Source: Methyloversatilis sp. (lineage in GTDB: Bacteria > Pseudomonadota > Gammaproteobacteria > Burkholderiales > Rhodocyclaceae). From it: a stretch of DNA of 64,000 bases. Below are positions 37,346-45,961 of this stretch, in pieces. The translations under genes and the position numbers were made by a program. The notes under the pieces are model-generated. The model saw nothing but the letters and a program-made list of their open reading frames with translations, searched no databases and had not been told where the DNA came from. The stretch is from assembly GCF_030696805.1 (NCBI RefSeq), contig NZ_JAUYRO010000096.1, forward strand, positions 1 to 64,000, given 5' to 3'. Every line of letters begins with the position of its first letter. Position 1 is the stretch's first letter.

Positions 37346-38308
37346 ATGCATGCCACACTGCCGCTTCTGCGAACGACCGACTTTCCGCCGCTGGCCCGTC
37401 GCCACACCGAAATCCTGCAACTGAATCTGGGTTACACCTGTAACCAGAGCTGCCTGCACTGCCATGTCAACGCAGGCCCTGCCCGCACTGAACAGATGAG
37501 TCTGGCCACGTTGCAGGTCGTTCTCGACTTCATCCGTGCGTCCGACGTGCGCCTCATCGATCTGACCGGCGGTGCGCCGGAAATGAATCCGCACTTCCGC
37601 TGGCTGGTGACAGAGGCCCGCAAGCTGGACGTCGCCGTGATAGATCGCTGCAACCTGACCATCCTGTCCGAACCCGGCCACGAGGGCACGGCGCAGTTTC
37701 TGGCCGACCATCGGGTGCAGGTCACTGCGTCGCTGCCCTGCTATCTCGAAGACAACGTCGATCGCCAGCGCGGCGACGGCGTGTTCGCGCGCAGCATCGC
37801 CGCGCTGCAGCAGCTCAACGCACTCGGCTATGGGCGCCCCAATTCCGGACTGGAACTGAATCTTGTGTTCAATCCGCAGGGACCGTCGCTGCCACCGCCG
37901 CAGCAGGCGCTGGAGCAGTCCTATCGCGATCGCCTCGGCGGCGCCTTCGGCATCGTGTTCACGCGCCTTTACACACTGACCAACATGCCGATCCAGCGCT
38001 TCGGCTCGACACTGGTATCGAAAGGCCAGTTCAACGCCTACATGCAGACCCTGCGTGCGGCGCACCGCGACGACAACCTCGACAGCGTGATGTGCCGCAA
38101 TCTGCTCAGCGTCGACTGGGAAGGCCACGTCTATGACTGCGACTTCAACCAGATGCTGGGCCTGCCGCTGCGCATCGACGGCCGGCCGCGAGTGCATCTG
38201 TCCGAACTGATCGGCCGCGACGTGTCGGGCACGCCCATCGTCGTCATGGATCACTGCTACGGCTGCACTGCGGGACAGGGCTCGTCCTGCGCAGGCGCTC
38301 TGGCATGA
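37346..38308 (+). CDS. arsS: Arsenosugar biosynthesis radical SAM enzyme ArsS
   Basis: A radical SAM enzyme that, with methylated arsenic, forms the 5'-deoxyadenosyl-arsenic intermediate of arsenosugars. The 320 residues carry the 4Fe-4S motif C32-x3-C36-x2-C39 (CNQSCLHC), GGAPEMNP as the SAM-binding glycine segment, and the C-terminal DUF3641-type domain with cysteines in VMCRNLL, YDCDFNQ and CYGCTAGQGSSC. ATG 37346 is used; longer readings run into acuI on the other strand. It is the first gene of an eight-gene plus-strand operon. The family name is firm, while the in vivo product is inferred. Confidence 0.9.
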   Translation: MHATLPLLRTTDFPPLARRHTEILQLNLGYTCNQSCLHCHVNAGPARTEQMSLATLQVVLDFIRASDVRLIDLTGGAPEMNPHFRWLVTEARKLDVAVIDRCNLTILSEPGHEGTAQFLADHRVQVTASLPCYLEDNVDRQRGDGVFARSIAALQQLNALGYGRPNSGLELNLVFNPQGPSLPPPQQALEQSYRDRLGGAFGIVFTRLYTLTNMPIQRFGSTLVSKGQFNAYMQTLRAAHRDDNLDSVMCRNLLSVDWEGHVYDCDFNQMLGLPLRIDGRPRVHLSELIGRDVSGTPIVVMDHCYGCTAGQGSSCAGALA

Positions 38309-38318
38309 AGGGCCGGTC

Positions 38319-39713
38319 ATGAACGATCCGGTGGTGTTCGGTTTCGCCTTCTGGGGCTTTCTGGTGCTGTACGGTGTCGGCATGTATGCGCTGTCGCCGC
38401 GCGCTGTCGGGCGGGCCGGCTTCTTCGACGGCCACGACGAAGCCGGTCGCCCGGCCGGCACCTGGGCGCTCGGCGCCAGCATCTTCATATCGTGGATTTT
38501 CGCGAAGTCCATCACCAATGCGGCCAATCTCGGCGCGACCTACGGCATCGTCGGCGGACTGGCCTATGCGACTTACTGGCTGTCGATTCCGCTGGCTGGC
38601 TGGGCCATCCTGCGACTGCGCCGACGCTATGGCGCCACCAGCCTGATGTCTTTCCTGACCGGGCGGCACGGCAGGCTCGCGGCGCTGGCCTTTTCGATCG
38701 CCATCCTGGTGCGTCTGTTCAACGAGGTGTGGAGCAATACGGCGGTCGTCGGCGGCTATTACGGCCCGGCAGGGTCGAGCGAATTCATCGGTGCTGCGCT
38801 GCTGTTCACCGCCGCCACCCTGTTCTACAGCCTGAAGGGCGGCCTGCGCTCATCGATCTACACCGACGTGCTGCAGACCGGCCTGTTCGTGCTGTTCTTC
38901 GCTGTCGTGCTGCTGCTGGTGTTGCCGACGCACGGACCGGTGGCGCTCGTGAGCACCGGCGAGTTCCGGCTCGACGCCGGCGTCGACCTGCTGCTGGTCG
39001 CCGCGCTGCAGGTGCTGTCCTACCCCTTCCACGATCCGGTGCTGACCGACCGCGGCTTCATCACCGAAGAAAGGCGCATGCTGCGCGCCTTCGTCTGGGC
39101 GGGTGCGCTCGGCTTCGTGTGCATCCTGCTGTTTTCCCTTGTCGGGGTGCATGCCCGGCTGGAAGGACTGGCCGGCGGCGACAACGTGCCGGCCGCACTC
39201 GCCCGCAGCATGGGCCCGGCGGCACTGTTCGCGATGACCATCGTCATGGTGGCCGCGGCCGGTTCGACGCTCGATTCGACCTTTTCGTCGCTGGCCCGGC
39301 ACGTGGCGCAGGAACTGCCGCAACTGGCCGGACGACCGGAGCCGCAACGCGCGGTTGCCCTCGGCATGGGGGCCATGGCGCTGTTCGCGATCATCGGCAA
39401 TCTGCCGATGATCGCCGGCACCGACATCCTGAAAGCGACGACCATCAGCGGCACGATGGTGATCGGTCTGGCGCCGATCTTCCTGCTGGCCGGCTTCACG
39501 CAGCCGGGCACGCGCGCTGCGAAGTGGTCCTTCCACCTGGCGTTCTGGACCGGGCTCGCGCTGGGCGTGCTGCTGGCGATGGGACTGATCCCCGACAGCT
39601 GGGCCATCGGCACCGGCAAATACGCCAGACTGCTCGGCGTGAATCTTTACGGACTGCTGCTATGCACCGCCGGCTACCTGTTGCCGCCGCTGATCGCGGG
39701 ACGGATGCGATGA
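38319..39713 (+). CDS. Sodium:solute symporter family protein in the arsS operon
   Basis: A 464-residue integral membrane protein with about 12-13 helices in the SSS (SLC5-like) fold. TWALGASIFISWIFAKS and the DPVLTDRGFITEERR loop match the family's substrate and Na+ site regions, and AAAGSTLDSTFSSLARH is a typical helix 8 Na+ site. The substrate is unknown. Arsenic, sugar or organoarsenic transport is suggested only by position between arsS and the metallophosphoesterase-like gene. It starts 10 bases after arsS and its stop overlaps the next start (ATGA). Confidence 0.85.
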   Translation: MNDPVVFGFAFWGFLVLYGVGMYALSPRAVGRAGFFDGHDEAGRPAGTWALGASIFISWIFAKSITNAANLGATYGIVGGLAYATYWLSIPLAGWAILRLRRRYGATSLMSFLTGRHGRLAALAFSIAILVRLFNEVWSNTAVVGGYYGPAGSSEFIGAALLFTAATLFYSLKGGLRSSIYTDVLQTGLFVLFFAVVLLLVLPTHGPVALVSTGEFRLDAGVDLLLVAALQVLSYPFHDPVLTDRGFITEERRMLRAFVWAGALGFVCILLFSLVGVHARLEGLAGGDNVPAALARSMGPAALFAMTIVMVAAAGSTLDSTFSSLARHVAQELPQLAGRPEPQRAVALGMGAMALFAIIGNLPMIAGTDILKATTISGTMVIGLAPIFLLAGFTQPGTRAAKWSFHLAFWTGLALGVLLAMGLIPDSWAIGTGKYARLLGVNLYGLLLCTAGYLLPPLIAGRMR

Positions 39714-40672
39714 ACCCTCACCTCGTTGACGGTACGACCGACGACAACCTCGCCGACCCCGGCCGCAGCTGCCCGCTGCACTACCGCTATGGCGCGGCCG
39801 CGCTGGCCGATACCCGCGCCGATCTGGCGACGGACACGCTTTATGTCGTCGGCGGCCTGTACGGCAACCGGCCGGCGCTCGCCGCGCTCGAGCGGCTGTT
39901 CGCCATTGAGCGCGGCGACGCGCGCCTGATGTTCAACGGCGACTTTCACTGGTTCGACATCGACCCGGCCCGCTTCGGCGACGTGCAGCGGCGTGTGCTG
40001 GCCCATGACGCAAGCGCCGGCAACGTCGAAGCCGAACTGGCCGATGGCTCGGGCGATGCCGGCTGCGGCTGCAGCTATCCGGACGACGTGCCGCAGGCGC
40101 TGGTCGACCGCTCCAACCTCATTCATGCGCAGTTGTCGCGTACCGCCGGCCACGATCCGCACTGGCGCGGCGAACTGGCGGCGCTCGACTTCTGGCGCGG
40201 CGTGCGCATCGGCGATGCCCGCGTCGGCGTGGTGCATGGCGACGCCGACTCGCTGGCCGGCTGGGCGTTCGATGCCCGCACGCTCAACGAAGCTGCGCAG
40301 CGCGCCCGTCACCTGGAACAGTTCCGCCGGGCGCAGTGCGACGTGTTCGCCAGCAGTCACACCTGTCTGCCTGCGCTGAAGCGTTTCGACGGCCATGCGG
40401 TGATCAACAACGGTGCCGCCGGCATGCCCAATTTCCACGACCGTCTGTGCGGCGTCATCAGCCGGATCGCACTGACGCCGTCGCCGCATCCGGTGCTGTA
40501 CGGCACACGCATCGGCGCCCTGCATGTCGATGCGCTGGCGCTCGACTACGATCTGGCCGCCTGGCAGGCCGAATTCGCCGCGCAGTGGCCGGAGGGCTCG
40601 GCGGCCGCGCTGAACTATCTCGACCGCATCGACCACGGCCCGGACTGGACACTTGAAGAGGCGGCGCCATGA
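39710..40672 (+). CDS. Degenerate metallophosphoesterase-like protein in the arsS operon
   Basis: A 320-residue soluble protein with a calcineurin-like outline. The usual first motif DxH is replaced by GLY in YVVGGLYGN, NGDFHWFD sits at the GD motif, GNVE at the GNHE motif, VVHGDAD at the H motif, and SSHTCLP at GHxH. So N and H positions survive but several metal ligands do not, and a cysteine occurs in the last motif; a GCGC cluster lies near residue 119. It may be a divergent metal- or arsenic-binding member. Overlaps of 4 bases at both ends show tight coupling. Confidence 0.6.
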   Translation: MNPHLVDGTTDDNLADPGRSCPLHYRYGAAALADTRADLATDTLYVVGGLYGNRPALAALERLFAIERGDARLMFNGDFHWFDIDPARFGDVQRRVLAHDASAGNVEAELADGSGDAGCGCSYPDDVPQALVDRSNLIHAQLSRTAGHDPHWRGELAALDFWRGVRIGDARVGVVHGDADSLAGWAFDARTLNEAAQRARHLEQFRRAQCDVFASSHTCLPALKRFDGHAVINNGAAGMPNFHDRLCGVISRIALTPSPHPVLYGTRIGALHVDALALDYDLAAWQAEFAAQWPEGSAAALNYLDRIDHGPDWTLEEAAP

Positions 40673-42834
40673 ACGCGCGCAAGCTTGTCCTGCTCGGGGC
40701 GGTCGTCGCACTGGTTGCCGCCTTCTTCGTTTTCGACCTCGGCCGCTTTTTCGATCTGGCCTGGTTCAAGGCGCAGCAGCGCATGCTGACCGACGAGGTC
40801 GAAGCCGCACCCTGGGCCTCCGCCGCGCTGTTTTTCGCGATCTATGTTGTCGTGACGGCGCTGTCGCTGCCCGGTGCGGCGATCATGACGCTGGCCGGCG
40901 GTGCGCTGTTCGGCTTCGTCAAGGCGCTGGTCATCGTGTCCTTCGCATCCAGCCTGGGCGCTCTGCTCGCCTTCCTGATCGCGCGCTTCCTGTTGCGCGA
41001 CTGGGTGCAGGCGCGCTTCGGCACGGCGTTGCAGTCGATCAATCGCGGCGTCGAGAAGGACGGTGCGTTCTATCTGTTCACGCTGCGGCTGGTGCCGGCC
41101 TTCCCGTTCTTCGCGGTCAATCTGGCGATGGCACTGACCGCGCTGCCGGCACGCACCTTTTACTGGGTGAGTCAGCTCGGCATGCTGGCCGGCACCATCG
41201 TGTTCGTGAATGCGGGCACCCAGATCGGCCGCATCGAATCGCTTTCCGGCATCCTGTCGCCCGGGCTGATCGGCGCCTTCGTTCTTCTGGGCGTGTTTCC
41301 GCTGATCGCCCGCAGGGTGATCGATGCGGTGCGCAGCCGCGCGGTGTTCCGCCGCTGGCCGAAACCGTCACGCTTCGACTACAACCTGGCCGTGATCGGC
41401 GGCGGCAGCGCCGGTCTGGTCACCGCCTACATCGGCGCCGCAGTGAAGGCGAAGGTGGCGCTGGTCGAGCAGCACAGCATGGGCGGTGACTGCCTCAACA
41501 CCGGCTGCGTGCCGTCGAAGGCGCTGCTCCGCTCGGCGCGGCTGCTGTCGCAGATCGCGCACTCGAAGTCGCTCGGCGTGCGCGAGGCGAGTGCGCAGTT
41601 CGACTTCGCCGACGTGATGGAACGCGTGGCTCGCGTGGTGCGCGCCATCGAACCGCATGATTCGGTCGAACGCTACGCCGCGCTCGGCGTCGATTGCTTC
41701 GACGCGCGCGCACGCATCACCTCGCCATGGACCGTCGAAGTGACGCAGCGCGACGGCAGCACGCGCACGCTGTCCGCACGCAACATCGTCATCGCTGCCG
41801 GCGCCCGCCCCTTTGTGCCGCCGATACCCGGCATCGACGCGATGGATCTGCTCACGTCGGACACGCTGTGGTCGCTGCGCACCCTGCCCGGCCGGCTGCT
41901 GGTGCTCGGTGGCGGCCCGATCGGCTGCGAACTGTCGCAGGCTTTCGCGCGCTTCGGCTCTGAGGTGACCCAGGTCGAAATGGCGCCGCGTCTCATGGGA
42001 CGCGAAGATCCGGATGTGTCGGCACTGGTCGAAGCGCGTTTCGCCGAAGAAGGCGTGCGAGTGCTGACCGGCCACAAGGCGGTTCGGTTTGCGCGGGAAG
42101 GAGAGGCGAAGGTGCTGTACGCCGAAGGGCCGGAGGGTGAAGGACAAGAGGGCGAGGTGCGCATCGAATTCGACACCCTGCTGTGCGCCGTCGGCCGCAC
42201 GCCCAATGTCAGCGGCTACGGCCTGGAAGAACTGGGCATCGCGCTGCGCACCAACAAGACCGTCGACACCAATGACTACCTTGAAACGCTGTACCCCAAT
42301 ATTTTCGCGTGCGGCGACGTGACCGGACCGTTCCAGTTCACGCACACCGCCGCGCATCAGGCCTGGTACGCCGCGGTCAATGCGCTGTTCGGCCGCTTCA
42401 GACGCTTTGCGGTCGATTATTCGGTCATTCCGTGGGCCACCTTCACTGAACCCGAGGTGGCGCGCGTCGGTCTGAACGAAACCGACGCAAAGGCGCGCAA
42501 CATTCCGCATGAAGTGACGATCTACGAACTCGATGACCTGGATCGCGCGATCACCGACGAGGTGGCGCACGGCTTCGTCAAGGTGCTCACCGTGCCCGGG
42601 CGCGACCGCATCCTCGGCGTGACCATCGTCGGCGAGCACGCGGGCGAACTGATCGCCGAATACGTGCTGGCGATGAAGCACGGTCTGGGGCTCAACAAAC
42701 TCCTGGGCACCATCCACATCTACCCGACGATGAACGAAGCAAACAAGTTCGCCGCTGGTGTGTGGAAGAAGGCGCACGCGCCACAGACGCTACTGGCATG
42801 GGTCGCGCGCTACCACGCGTGGATGCGCGGATGA
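40669..42834 (+). CDS. TVP38/DedA-like membrane domain fused to a FAD disulfide oxidoreductase
   Basis: A 721-residue fusion. Residues about 1-220 form a TVP38/TMEM64 (DedA-like) domain with five to six helices and FAxSLGALLAFLIARFLLRD-like and LRLVPAFPFFAVNL motifs. From about 235 there is a mercuric reductase/dihydrolipoamide dehydrogenase-type enzyme: FAD loop GGGSAGLVTAY, redox CLNTGC (CxxxxC), NAD loop GGGPIGCELSQAFARFG, GDVTGPFQFTH and a dimerisation domain. The Cys-Cys tail of true MerA is missing, so it is not a mercury reductase. It overlaps neighbours by 4 bases. It may reduce an arsenic or thiol substrate at the membrane. Confidence 0.85.
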   Translation: MNARKLVLLGAVVALVAAFFVFDLGRFFDLAWFKAQQRMLTDEVEAAPWASAALFFAIYVVVTALSLPGAAIMTLAGGALFGFVKALVIVSFASSLGALLAFLIARFLLRDWVQARFGTALQSINRGVEKDGAFYLFTLRLVPAFPFFAVNLAMALTALPARTFYWVSQLGMLAGTIVFVNAGTQIGRIESLSGILSPGLIGAFVLLGVFPLIARRVIDAVRSRAVFRRWPKPSRFDYNLAVIGGGSAGLVTAYIGAAVKAKVALVEQHSMGGDCLNTGCVPSKALLRSARLLSQIAHSKSLGVREASAQFDFADVMERVARVVRAIEPHDSVERYAALGVDCFDARARITSPWTVEVTQRDGSTRTLSARNIVIAAGARPFVPPIPGIDAMDLLTSDTLWSLRTLPGRLLVLGGGPIGCELSQAFARFGSEVTQVEMAPRLMGREDPDVSALVEARFAEEGVRVLTGHKAVRFAREGEAKVLYAEGPEGEGQEGEVRIEFDTLLCAVGRTPNVSGYGLEELGIALRTNKTVDTNDYLETLYPNIFACGDVTGPFQFTHTAAHQAWYAAVNALFGRFRRFAVDYSVIPWATFTEPEVARVGLNETDAKARNIPHEVTIYELDDLDRAITDEVAHGFVKVLTVPGRDRILGVTIVGEHAGELIAEYVLAMKHGLGLNKLLGTIHIYPTMNEANKFAAGVWKKAHAPQTLLAWVARYHAWMRG

Positions 42835-43517
42835 GGCGGCTGTCCATCGTGCTGCCGGTGCTGAACGAAGCCGCGACCATAGGCGATGCGCTGTCGCGAC
42901 TGCCGTCGGCTGACGCCTGCGACGTCGAGATCATCGTCGCCGACGGCGGCAGCCGCGACGAGACGGTGGCGATCGCGCAGGCTCACGGGGCACGCGTGGT
43001 CCGCTCCTTGCGGGGTCGTGCGTTGCAGATGAACATTGGTGCGCAGGTGGCGTCCGGCGACGTTCTGCTATTCCTGCACGCCGACACTCAGCTGCCTCCC
43101 GACGCGGTCGAACTGATCGATCGATTGATAGCGGACGGCGCGCAGTGGGGGCGTTTCGACGTGCGCATTGATGGTCGCCACCCGCTGCTCGCGGTCATCG
43201 CCACCATGATGAACCTGCGTTCCCGCCTGACCGGCATCGCCACCGGCGATCAGGCGATCTTCTGCTCGCGCGGGCTGTTCGATTCACTGGATGGCTACGC
43301 GCCGATCGCCCTGATGGAAGACATCGACTTTTCAACCCGCGCGCGTTCGCGGTCCCGACCGGCCTGCCTGAGCGCGCGCGTCACCACGTCGGGCCGCCGC
43401 TGGGAGCGCCGGGGCGTGCTGCGCACCATCATGTTGATGTGGCGCCTGCGTCTGCGCTACTTCTTCGGCGCCGATCCGCGCGATCTGGTGCGCGACTACC
43501 GACCGCATCATGAGTGA
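42831..43517 (+). CDS. Glycosyltransferase family 2, TIGR04283 arsenosugar type
   Basis: A 228-residue GT-A fold glycosyltransferase. SIVLPVLNEAATIGDAL opens the nucleotide fold, IIVADGGSRDET gives the first acidic motif, FLHADTQLP the DxD-like metal site, and ALMEDIDF the catalytic ED. The TIGR04283 group is found with arsS in many genomes and is presumed to finish the arsenosugar headgroup. ATG 42831 overlaps the previous stop by 4 bases; its end overlaps the next gene by 8. The acceptor and donor are not known. Confidence 0.85.
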   Translation: MRRLSIVLPVLNEAATIGDALSRLPSADACDVEIIVADGGSRDETVAIAQAHGARVVRSLRGRALQMNIGAQVASGDVLLFLHADTQLPPDAVELIDRLIADGAQWGRFDVRIDGRHPLLAVIATMMNLRSRLTGIATGDQAIFCSRGLFDSLDGYAPIALMEDIDFSTRARSRSRPACLSARVTTSGRRWERRGVLRTIMLMWRLRLRYFFGADPRDLVRDYRPHHE

Positions 43518-44142
43518 GCTCGAAACAACGGTACTGGTGTTCGCGCGTGCGCCCGAGGCCGGCCGCACCAAGACGCGCCTGATACCGTTGCTGGGCGCCG
43601 ATGGCGCGGCGCGGATCAGTGCGCAGCTGACCCAACGTGCGCTGCGGGTGGCCGTCGACGCAGCCATCGGCCCGGTCGAACTGTGGTGCGCACCGGACTG
43701 CAGCCATGATTTCTTCGAACGCTGTCGTGACCGCTACGGCGTGTCGCTGCATGCCCAGTCGGGCGGCGACATCGGGGCGCGCATGGCGCAAGCCTTCGAC
43801 GACGTCCTCCGCCGCCATGCCCGCGCGGTGCTGATCGGCGCCGATGCCGTGTCATTGCAGCCCGCCGACCTGCGCGCAGCAGATGTTGCGCTGCGCAGCC
43901 GCGATGCCGTGTTCGCTCCGGCCGAGGACGGCGGCTATCTGCTGGTGGGACTGCGTGTTCGGCAAGCTGCCGTGTTCGAAGGCATCGCATGGGGCAGCGC
44001 CGGGGTGTGGTCGCAGACTCTCGCGGTGATCGATCGGCTCGGCCTGCATGCGCAGACGCTTGCGACCGGATACGACCTCGACCGCCCGGACGACTATCGA
44101 CGTGCCGTGGCCGAAGGTCTGCTGGTGCCCGAGCTGTGCTGA
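43510..44142 (+). CDS. TIGR04282-type arsenosugar glycosyltransferase (CofC/MobA-like fold)
   Basis: A 210-residue protein with the nucleotidyl/glycosyl transferase fold of COG3222. TVLVFARAPEAGRTKTRL is the N-terminal sugar-nucleotide loop, and VFAPAEDGGYLLVGLR is the family hallmark. The middle metal motif reads LIGADAVSL, where most members have a GxDCP-like sequence. NCBI-style family annotation pairs TIGR04282 with TIGR04283 in arsenosugar clusters, as here. It overlaps the upstream gene by 8 bases and the next by 7. Confidence 0.82.
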   Translation: MSELETTVLVFARAPEAGRTKTRLIPLLGADGAARISAQLTQRALRVAVDAAIGPVELWCAPDCSHDFFERCRDRYGVSLHAQSGGDIGARMAQAFDDVLRRHARAVLIGADAVSLQPADLRAADVALRSRDAVFAPAEDGGYLLVGLRVRQAAVFEGIAWGSAGVWSQTLAVIDRLGLHAQTLATGYDLDRPDDYRRAVAEGLLVPELC

Positions 44143-44891
44143 CCCGCCTGCGCGCGCTGCTGCTGGCGATCGCGCTGGCGCTGACCTGCGAAATGTCGGC
44201 GATCGCGGCAGATCCGGTGTCGCTGCCCGCCTTTTCGACCCAGTCAGCCGGACCGAACGTCGGCGGATGGACGGCCTATACGCTGGGCGGCAAGGCGGAG
44301 CCTGCCGATTTCCGGCTGGCCGAGCTCGACGGCCTGACCGTGCTCCGTGTCGAGGCGTCGAATGCGGCTTCGGCGCTGATCCACACCCGCCGTTTCGATC
44401 CGCTCGCCACGCCCTGGCTGAACTGGCGCTGGCGCGCCGACGTGCTGCCGGCTGGCGGTCGCTTCGCGACGCGCGATGGCGACGACTACGCGCTGCGCAT
44501 CTATGTGCTGTTCGATCTCGATCCGGCCAAGCTGTCGTTCGGCACGCGCACGAAAATCCGGCTGGCGCGTACTTTCTACGGCGAGCAGATTCCGACCGCC
44601 GTGCTGTGCTACGTGTGGGACACGCGTGCGGCGCCGGGCTCACGCGCATGGAGCGCCTACACCGACCGGGTGCGCATGATCGCCGTCGACGGTGCCGGCT
44701 CGCCGACCGGAAGCTGGCGCGAGGCGAGCCGCAATCTGGTCGAGGACTACCGCGAAGCTTTCGGCGAAGACCCGCCGGCCGTGACCGGCGTCGTGGTCGC
44801 CAGCGACAGCGACAACACCGGCGGACGTACGCTGGGCTATTTCGGCGATCTGTCAGTCACCGCTCAGCCAGCGCTGCAGCCAACGCCATGA
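44136..44891 (+). CDS. DUF3047 exported protein in the arsS operon
   Basis: A 251-residue protein starting at GTG 44136, inside the end of the previous gene. The signal peptide (MLTRLRALLLAIALALT, cut near AIAA) directs it to the periplasm. The mature part is the DUF3047 jellyroll-like domain: GWTAYTLGGKAEPADF, LNWRWRADVLPAGGRF, DDYALRIYVLFD, CYVWDTRAAPG and VVASDSDNTGG. No catalytic residues are obvious, so a binding or carrier role is possible. Its stop overlaps the following ATG by 4 bases. Known function: none. Confidence 0.78.
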   Translation: MLTRLRALLLAIALALTCEMSAIAADPVSLPAFSTQSAGPNVGGWTAYTLGGKAEPADFRLAELDGLTVLRVEASNAASALIHTRRFDPLATPWLNWRWRADVLPAGGRFATRDGDDYALRIYVLFDLDPAKLSFGTRTKIRLARTFYGEQIPTAVLCYVWDTRAAPGSRAWSAYTDRVRMIAVDGAGSPTGSWREASRNLVEDYREAFGEDPPAVTGVVVASDSDNTGGRTLGYFGDLSVTAQPALQPTP

Positions 44892-45961
44892 AACGCCTCG
44901 TTCTGCTCGGTGGCGGTCACGCCCACCTGTTCGTACTGGAAGCATTTGCGCGCGAACAGCCCGATGCAATGGTCAGCCTGATCACGCCCGATGTACTGAC
45001 ACCTTACTCCGGCATGATGCCGGGCGTCATCGCCGGTCATTACGACTACCGGCAGGCCTGCATTGATCTCGCGCCGCTGGCTGCGCAGGCGGGCTGCGCG
45101 CTCAGGCTGGATTCCGCGGTGTCGCTGGATGCTGCGCAGCGGCAGATCCGGCTGGCCAGCGGCGAGGTGATCGACTATGACCTGCTGTCGATCGACACTG
45201 GCTCGACCCCGCGCATCCCCGATCTTCCGGGTGCCGACACCTGTGGTCATCCGGTGAAGCCGATCGGGCAGTTGCTCGAAAGCTGGCACACCGCGCGCGC
45301 CGCACGGTCTGCCGCAGTAATTGGTGCGGGTGCAGCGGGCGTCGAAATCATCATGGCGCTGCATCACCGGCAACCGCGGATGCGCTGCACGTTGATCGAC
45401 CGTGCGCCGTCCATTCTCGACGGGCTGCCCGCGGGCCTGCAGCGGCGTGCGATGGCTGAACTGGCGCGCCAGCAGGTCGACGTGGTGACCGATGCGGGCG
45501 TGTCCGGACTCGACGCCGATACGCTCACGCTCGAAGATGGGCGCAGCCTTCCGAGCCAGTTCACGGTGTGGGCCACTGGAGCCGCCCCGCCAGCCTGGCT
45601 GCGCGGCAGCGGTCTCGCACTCGACGAGCGTGGCTTCATCGCCACCGGTCCGACGCTGCAGTCGCCGTCACACCCCGAAGTGTTCGCTGCCGGTGACGTG
45701 GCGACGATGATCGATTCGCCGCGCCCGAAGTCCGGCGTGTTCGCCGTGCGCGCCGGTCCGCCGCTGGCTGCCAATCTGCTGCGCGCCGCGCGGGGCTACA
45801 CGCTGCAGCCCTGGGCACCGCAGACGCAAGCGCTTCTGCTGCTCGCCTGCGGCCGCCGCCACGCCATCGCGTCACGCGGGGGCTGGTCGCTGCAGGGAGA
45901 CTGGGTGTGGCGCTGGAAGGACCGCATCGACCGGGCCTTCATGCGCCGTTTCGCTCTTTGA
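44888..45961 (+). CDS. Pyridine nucleotide-disulfide oxidoreductase of the SelD-N-terminal type
   Basis: A 357-residue flavoprotein resembling NADH dehydrogenase II and the NtermToSelD domain (TIGR03169-like) fused to SelD in other bacteria. It has LVLLGGGHAHLFVLEAF (FAD loop with the GGGHAH signature), SIDTGSTPR, AAVIGAGAAGVEIIMAL (NAD loop), FAAGDVATM and no membrane anchor. There is no redox CxxxxC pair and no SelD kinase domain. It is the last gene of the arsS operon. mnmH/selU lies 1.5 kb downstream, but no selD is in the window. The electron acceptor is unknown. Confidence 0.82.
   Translation: MKRLVLLGGGHAHLFVLEAFAREQPDAMVSLITPDVLTPYSGMMPGVIAGHYDYRQACIDLAPLAAQAGCALRLDSAVSLDAAQRQIRLASGEVIDYDLLSIDTGSTPRIPDLPGADTCGHPVKPIGQLLESWHTARAARSAAVIGAGAAGVEIIMALHHRQPRMRCTLIDRAPSILDGLPAGLQRRAMAELARQQVDVVTDAGVSGLDADTLTLEDGRSLPSQFTVWATGAAPPAWLRGSGLALDERGFIATGPTLQSPSHPEVFAAGDVATMIDSPRPKSGVFAVRAGPPLAANLLRAARGYTLQPWAPQTQALLLLACGRRHAIASRGGWSLQGDWVWRWKDRIDRAFMRRFAL

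Follow-up and report, generated by a model that had tools for sequence, protein, structure and literature searches.

An ArsS-associated metallophosphoesterase-like family in an eight-gene operon of probable arsenosugar type in Methyloversatilis sp.

Introduction

Arsenosugar synthesis in Synechocystis reportedly runs through an ArsM-ArsS pathway, an account said to rest on work by Xue et al. from 2017 and 2019 and by Cheng et al. from 2021; for the reactions that follow ArsS on the way to arsenosugars, we know of no assignment. Here we describe an operon that starts with arsS in Methyloversatilis sp. (Gammaproteobacteria, Burkholderiales, Rhodocyclaceae) and, within it, a gene for a degenerate metallophosphoesterase (MPE). 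The operon occupies positions 37346-45961 of a 64,000-nucleotide stretch (positions 1 to 64,000 of contig NZ_JAUYRO010000096.1, assembly GCF_030696805.1), referred to below as the window, which is contig 35 of a 4.19-Mb draft genome in 123 contigs that is 99.97% complete.

Excerpts of PMC8552651 give ArsM and ArsS a role in the arsenosugar pathway and describe arsQML of Burkholderia gladioli as the arsinothricin cluster, in which ArsL transfers an aminocarboxypropyl group. The eight-gene set of the window was not described in the titles listed or in the available excerpts of the open-licence literature searched, including PMC12159101, PMC3597751, PMC13188914, PMC8801600, PMC11237643, PMC8552651, PMC8787705, and PMC13077682.

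Results

Three families of the operon, MPE, DUF3047, and TIGR03169, track ArsS in their genome distribution. Presence was scored in 200 genomes of the order and in class samples of 369 genomes for ArsS and 175 genomes for MPE, and the contingency tests used genome presence and family labels compiled by hand from the search tables. ArsS scored above its cut-off in 65 of the 200 order genomes and in 180 of the 369 class genomes (183 at the E value under 1e-60 used to call it in the class). MPE was found in 33 order genomes, all 33 of which carry ArsS (Fisher P = 6e-20, infinite odds ratio). ArsS was likewise present in 58 of 65 genomes carrying TIGR03169 (odds ratio, 152; called at E = 1e-40, with 51 of the 65 above cut-off) and in 52 of 65 carrying DUF3047 (odds ratio, 38). 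The corresponding figure for ArsM was 18 of 24 (odds ratio, 8), counting matches of at least 100 bits; 67 genomes match at E = 1e-15, the remainder being weaker and mostly partial. By odds ratio, the ties of MPE, DUF3047, and TIGR03169 to ArsS thus exceed that of ArsM in the sampled order. The preliminary description, made from the window alone, had left these genes without an assigned step while placing them with ArsS, and the distribution bears this placement out. In 14 well-known control genomes, the ArsS and ArsM models passed in one genome each and those for DUF3047 and TIGR03169 in none. The seven best order matches to TIGR03169 lie in frames of 758-899 amino acids, which were judged to be SelD fusions by length alone.

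Because relatedness inflates Fisher P values across the order, the comparison was repeated within the 11 families that are mixed for ArsS, by stratified permutation (10,000 permutations). MPE was present in 13 of 24 ArsS-positive versus 0 of 28 ArsS-negative genomes (P = 5e-4), DUF3047 in 22 versus 4 (P = 1e-4), and TIGR03169 in 19 versus 1 (P = 1e-4); ArsM, at 11 versus 0 (P = 1e-4), was as exclusive as MPE. Since the links persist inside these families, the association is not an accident of one lineage, and it extends beyond the lineage of the window.

Three sets of loci were compared: 60 arsS loci of the order in addition to the window (taken from 59 of the other ArsS-positive genomes), 80 of the class (from the 183 ArsS-positive genomes, among the best matches listed), and 80 named loci centered on MPE (the best 80 of 478 relatives). 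Some order and named loci coincide, and neighbor context is incomplete at some loci because of contig ends; a gene was counted as present in a locus at 100 bits or more. ArsS lies within 63 of the named MPE loci, at one of them (L295) split into two weak pieces that score 90 and 81 bits; for the other 17, it lies elsewhere in the genome, where 16 copies score above cut-off and one is partial (267 bits). In the order, nine MPE copies are on a contig other than that of arsS or far from it; because these copies sit apart from arsS, the link between MPE and ArsS is not one of synteny alone. The 175 class genomes yielded five clear MPE matches, a sixth (G093, 29 bits) being set aside. Of the five genomes, three hold an ArsS above cut-off and one a partial ArsS, and in G055 no ArsS was found. 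We read MPE as an ArsS-dependent family and as a new element of the operon.

The window MPE falls under every Pfam and NCBIfam cut-off, with Metallophos_2 as its best Pfam match (E = 0.031; best value among 60 aligned members, 5.1e-6), and it had no match in a PDB sequence search. Its nearest relatives are from Methyloversatilis, at 88-91% identity. Calcineurin-type enzymes carry a two-metal motif composed of D-x-H, GD, GN, H, and GHxH. Across the 60 aligned MPE sequences, GGLYGN, D78 (of GD), N105 (of GN), H176, H217, C21, C119, and C121 are invariant, and C219 is present in at least 90%; relative to the calcineurin motif, D-x-H is replaced by GGLYGN and GHxH by SHTC, which leaves the ligand set incomplete. 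With neither D-x-H nor the final His of GHxH in place, one metal site appears to have been lost; the other could remain. The AlphaFold2 model (predicted local distance difference test [pLDDT], 91.5) has the predicted fold of calcineurin-like metallophosphoesterases, and its best Foldseek match is 3qfn, the asymmetric diadenosine tetraphosphate (Ap4A) hydrolase SapH (E = 3.3e-10, TM score [query] = 0.55).

The ArsS encoded in the window belongs to TIGR04167 and bears the Cys motifs of the ArsM-ArsS pathway, in a genome where ArsM was not found. Nine Cys residues are conserved at over 97% in 141 aligned ArsS sequences. An altered active site in clusters without arsM was considered and rejected: no alignment column separates the ArsS of mpe loci (23 sequences) from that of arsM loci (35 sequences) at thresholds of 80% and 70%. 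In a FastTree phylogeny of the 141 sequences, the window ArsS forms a pair with an ArsS encoded next to arsM (local support, 95), and adjacency to mpe changed at least 13 times and adjacency to arsM at least 25 times. Given this pairing and the lack of a discriminating column, the ArsS of the arsM-less operon likely performs the same chemistry. Its methylated substrate would therefore have to come from outside.

In line with the preliminary description, which reported arsM to be absent, ArsM was not found in the window's draft genome, the best match to model NF008823 scoring 50.7 bits; at this search sensitivity, the accompanying suggestion that arsM lies elsewhere in the genome gained no support. 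With the same model, an ArsM beside arsS at another locus (L075) scored 166.7 bits, and another arsS-adjacent type gave partial matches of 107.7-113 bits among the matches listed. At L170:10729-11931 (G127:C42), ArsM-like methyltransferases of about 375-400 amino acids adjoin arsS and score far under the NF008823 cut-off. Since arsS-adjacent ArsM-like proteins score so low, this cut-off undercounts ArsM in arsenosugar clusters. ArsM was detected in 18 of 65 ArsS-positive versus 6 of 135 ArsS-negative genomes of the order and in 132 of 183 versus 26 of 186 genomes of the class. Because ArsS and ArsM go together across the class, we keep an arsenic reading of the operon.

The eight plus-strand genes, from arsS to the TIGR03169 gene, and their coordinates agree with the preliminary description; Table 1 lists them with their family scores. 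The three presumed arsenosugar markers, ArsS, TIGR04283, and TIGR04282, are each above their curated NCBIfam cut-offs. Mostly overlapping junctions had also been described; six of the seven do overlap (by 4, 4, 4, 8, 7, and 4 bases), and the exception is a 10-base gap between arsS and sss. Relative to two other Methyloversatilis loci (L217 and L220), the ratio of nonsynonymous to synonymous substitution rates (dN/dS) is 0.057-0.264 for every gene of the operon, and all eight are under purifying selection. Because of these ratios, and because the gene order recurs in other genomes, the operon is not a chance arrangement. It is flanked by an AcuI-like gene upstream and an ATP-binding cassette (ABC) transporter gene downstream, both on the minus strand and named from their translations alone. 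Consensus promoters and terminators were in no excess over shuffled sequence.

Table 1. Genes of the arsS operon in the window (model scores in bits, cut-offs in parentheses)
Gene	Coordinates	Strand	Description and basis
arsS	37346-38308	+	Cys form of the radical SAM (seleno)protein family TIGR04167, with CxxxCxxC spanning residues 32-39; 449 (300)
sss	38319-39713	+	Putative divergent sodium:solute symporter, 464 amino acids; Pfam SSF 36.7 (22.8)
mpe	39710-40672	+	Degenerate calcineurin-like protein; alignment, predicted fold, ArsS-linked distribution
TVP38-oxidoreductase fusion	40669-42834	+	VTT_dom 74.8 and Pyr_redox_2 207.6 in one protein; MerA/lipoamide-dehydrogenase-like half
TIGR04283 gene	42831-43517	+	GT2-type glycosyltransferase; 273 (182)
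TIGR04282 gene	43510-44142	+	DUF2064, nucleotidyltransferase-like GT-A protein; 186 (134)
DUF3047 gene	44136-44891	+	Pfam 219 (27); hydrophobic N-terminal segment, then jelly-roll domain
TIGR03169 gene	44888-45961	+	Flavoprotein (SelD N-terminal-like pyridine nucleotide oxidoreductase); 397 (310); without SelD fusion

From the preliminary description, the eight families might have been expected to travel as a block, but they do not: the complete set occurs in just 1 of the 60 order arsS loci and in 9 of the 80 named MPE loci. In the order, the most frequent neighbors of arsS are the oxidoreductase (45 loci), TVP38 (44, fused in 40), TIGR04283 (43), and TIGR04282 (38), followed by MPE (22), TIGR03169 (21), and DUF3047 (20); ArsM was present in 6 loci, and the symporter, in 4, is the rarest of the eight. 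The 80 class loci contain TIGR04282 in 60, TIGR04283 in 55, ArsM in 29, TVP38 in 27, the oxidoreductase in 21, DUF3047 in 5, and TIGR03169 in 1; MPE and the symporter are in none. Of 61 order rows, 27 have a DUF547 gene in the cluster (for example, L080:4187-5044 and L091:4128-4925), frequently flanked by the TVP38 fusion and TIGR04283, and the query that found these detected no DUF547 in the window. Genome G497 carries ArsS at both L101 and L124, with MPE at one of these loci and an adjoining ArsM at the other. At L107 (G378:C101:102922-103202), MPE is present as two short pieces within an arsS cluster and looks like a decaying gene; that genome also carries ArsM. Five loci (L102, L125, L129, L130, and L131) hold a lower-scoring ArsS with the other cluster genes absent around it, and these ArsS proteins perhaps form a separate group.

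Outside the SSF match, sss scores 45.5 bits against TIGR00813, under the cut-off of 184, and has a weak match to SGLT1 chains. The mpe gene directly follows the symporter gene in all 44 cases (39 named loci, which were chosen by MPE, 4 order loci, and the window). In G055, the pair lies at L302:3840-6250, and within the 12 kb examined the adjoining ABC transporter genes look to be of the branched-chain amino acid/urea type. The preliminary description had raised the idea that the symporter imports methylated arsenic. ArsM, which was searched in 50 of the 80 named genomes, is indeed rarer with the symporter (2 of 25 symporter-positive versus 8 of 25 symporter-negative MPE genomes), a contrast that falls short of significance (Fisher P = 0.07) and lends weak support to such uptake.

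The oxidoreductase half of the TVP38 fusion combines Pyr_redox_2 and dimerization domains with CxxxxC and HxxPTxxE motifs, and its best PDB match is mercuric reductase; against the MerA model TIGR02053, it scores 361 bits, under the curated cut-off of 454. Both motifs are present in 44 of 48 fused open reading frames, and CxxxxC is kept in the 13 unfused oxidoreductases near arsS that were examined for it. The TIGR04282 protein has a weak match to CofC (5e-5) and matches PDB entry 3cgx, a putative nucleotide-diphospho-sugar transferase (2e-16). The AlphaFold2 model of DUF3047 (pLDDT, 89.4) shows a hydrophobic helix at the N terminus and a jelly-roll domain. Foldseek placed chains of the ciliary doublet microtubule first, the matched one being presumably CFAP20, and then the carbohydrate-binding modules CBM4/CBM16, at TM scores (query) of about 0.4-0.5.

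On a plasmid of Burkholderia glumae (L303:7994-10008; NZ_CP100267.1), arsS and mpe are 11 bases apart, with Tn3 and IS21 elements near. The opposite strand carries TIGR04282, TIGR04283, and S-methyl-5'-thioadenosine (MTA) phosphorylase genes within some 8 kb, separated by other genes, and each of two queries matches 47 plasmid records from Burkholderia. An enzyme of the MTA phosphorylase type could remove adenine from 5'-arsenoadenosine.

Discussion

We put at roughly 0.6 the probability that the operon encodes an ArsS-centered organoarsenical (arsenosugar-type) pathway without an ArsM of its own, in which MPE is a partner that depends on ArsS. The pathway, whose individual reactions we infer, may run as follows. 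A methylated arsenical from neighboring organisms would enter the cell, possibly via the symporter, and the membrane-anchored TVP38-reductase would hold the arsenic trivalent, as its MerA/LpdA-like CxxxxC and H-E motifs suggest. ArsS would then adenosylate the methylated arsenical, an activity that published work ascribes to the family. MPE may handle the adenosyl-arsenical, a role proposed from its predicted adenosine-polyphosphate phosphoesterase fold, lost metal site, and cysteines. Adenine would be removed by an enzyme of the MTA phosphorylase type encoded elsewhere, after which TIGR04282 and TIGR04283 would activate and transfer the arsenoribosyl unit. DUF3047 might bind the resulting glycoside outside the cytoplasm, and a redox function might fall to TIGR03169. 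It is more doubtful that, with the symporter, bacteria lacking ArsM are enabled to make organoarsenicals, whether from methylarsenic that they scavenge or directly from arsenite.

Several observations weigh against this pathway. G055, a 93% complete genome, has the symporter and MPE with no ArsS found, and DUF3047 and TIGR03169 occur in 13 and 7 ArsS-negative order genomes, respectively. ArsM is lacking in 47 of the 65 ArsS-positive order genomes and in 40 of the 50 tested named MPE genomes; because most of these genomes are without it, the methylated substrate of their ArsS is unexplained. MPE does not predict the loss of ArsM, which is present in 7 of 33 MPE-positive and 11 of 32 MPE-negative genomes, all of them ArsS positive (P = 0.28), and the contrast between symporter and ArsM is not significant. 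HxxPTxxE was detected by pattern in 1 of 23 unfused oxidoreductases near arsS; as the unfused forms mostly lack it, the reductase role is not uniform. MTA phosphorylase lies near arsS in 3 of the 61 order rows (the 60 loci plus the window), in none of the 80 class loci, and in 6 of the 80 named loci, which is too rare for a regular cluster member, and we treat it for that reason as a lead and not a rule. MPE was also considered as a direct replacement for ArsM, the two sharing none of the 220 loci, yet this idea was rejected because the genome-wide contrast between MPE-positive and MPE-negative genomes is not significant.

The frequent lack of ArsM could be explained in other ways. ArsS might adenosylate inorganic arsenite directly, much as ArsL modifies it with a SAM fragment of its own, to give an unmethylated arsono-nucleoside that mimics adenosine monophosphate and is recognized by MPE. 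According to the excerpt of PMC8552651, ArsL works on As(III) ahead of any methylation, and the predicted MPE fold does resemble the Ap4A hydrolase SapH. However, at the thresholds applied no residue distinguishes the ArsS of mpe loci from that of arsM loci, and the window ArsS pairs with an arsM-adjacent one. These shared features weaken the case for direct action on arsenite, as does the strong co-occurrence of ArsS and ArsM across the class, and we consider it unlikely. The same 47 of 65 order genomes without ArsM would also fit a product that contains no arsenic, made by ArsS-family adenosylation of a sulfur, selenium, or phosphorus nucleophile. The arsenosugar names of TIGR04282 and TIGR04283 come from NCBIfam annotation and would then merely have been inherited; TIGR03169 is associated with SelD, and the excerpt of PMC13188914 lists a selenoprotein form among the members of the ArsS family. 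This alternative appears improbable in light of the conserved ArsS cysteines and the association of ArsS with ArsM in both the class and the order.

The symporter and MPE might instead form a module of their own, inserted into the arsS operon, that takes up an unrelated solute. Their strict adjacency in 44 of 44 cases and the pair beside ABC transporter genes in G055 are what such a module predicts. Yet the symporter is absent from 18 of the 22 order ArsS loci that hold MPE, and ArsS accompanies MPE in all 33 order genomes and at all 80 named loci (the best 80 of 478); an inserted module is accordingly the least probable of these explanations. The ArsS-centered pathway with MPE as partner remains our preferred account. 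Because many ArsS-positive genomes have no detectable ArsM, ArsS alone should not be equated with arsenosugar synthesis from inorganic arsenic. MPE, DUF3047, and TIGR03169 provide a short list of candidates for deletion and expression work.

Compared with known proteins, MPE resembles the SapH/Ap4A hydrolase type (3qfn and 3qfm) in its predicted fold and, by motif, in half of the metal ligands; it differs in lacking D-x-H and the final His of GHxH, in its conserved cysteines, and in falling under the Pfam cut-off. At the level of the cluster, arsQML of B. gladioli has in common with the window a radical SAM enzyme forming a C-As bond encoded beside a transporter gene. As far as the excerpt describing it goes, ArsL transfers an aminocarboxypropyl rather than an adenosyl group, the cluster has arsM, and its remaining gene content is unlike that of the window. 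With the Synechocystis ArsM-ArsS pathway, the operon shares the ArsS equivalog by NCBIfam name, and the window TIGR04282 and TIGR04283 proteins bear arsenosugar names; it differs in that no ArsM was found in the genome and in the addition of MPE, the symporter, the TVP38-reductase fusion, DUF3047, and TIGR03169. The arsenosugar clusters of the class, finally, share arsS with TIGR04283 (55 of 80 loci) and TIGR04282 (60 of 80), whereas arsM is near in 29 of the 80 and MPE or the symporter in none. We read the operon, in a genome without detected ArsM, as a variant of the arsenosugar type.

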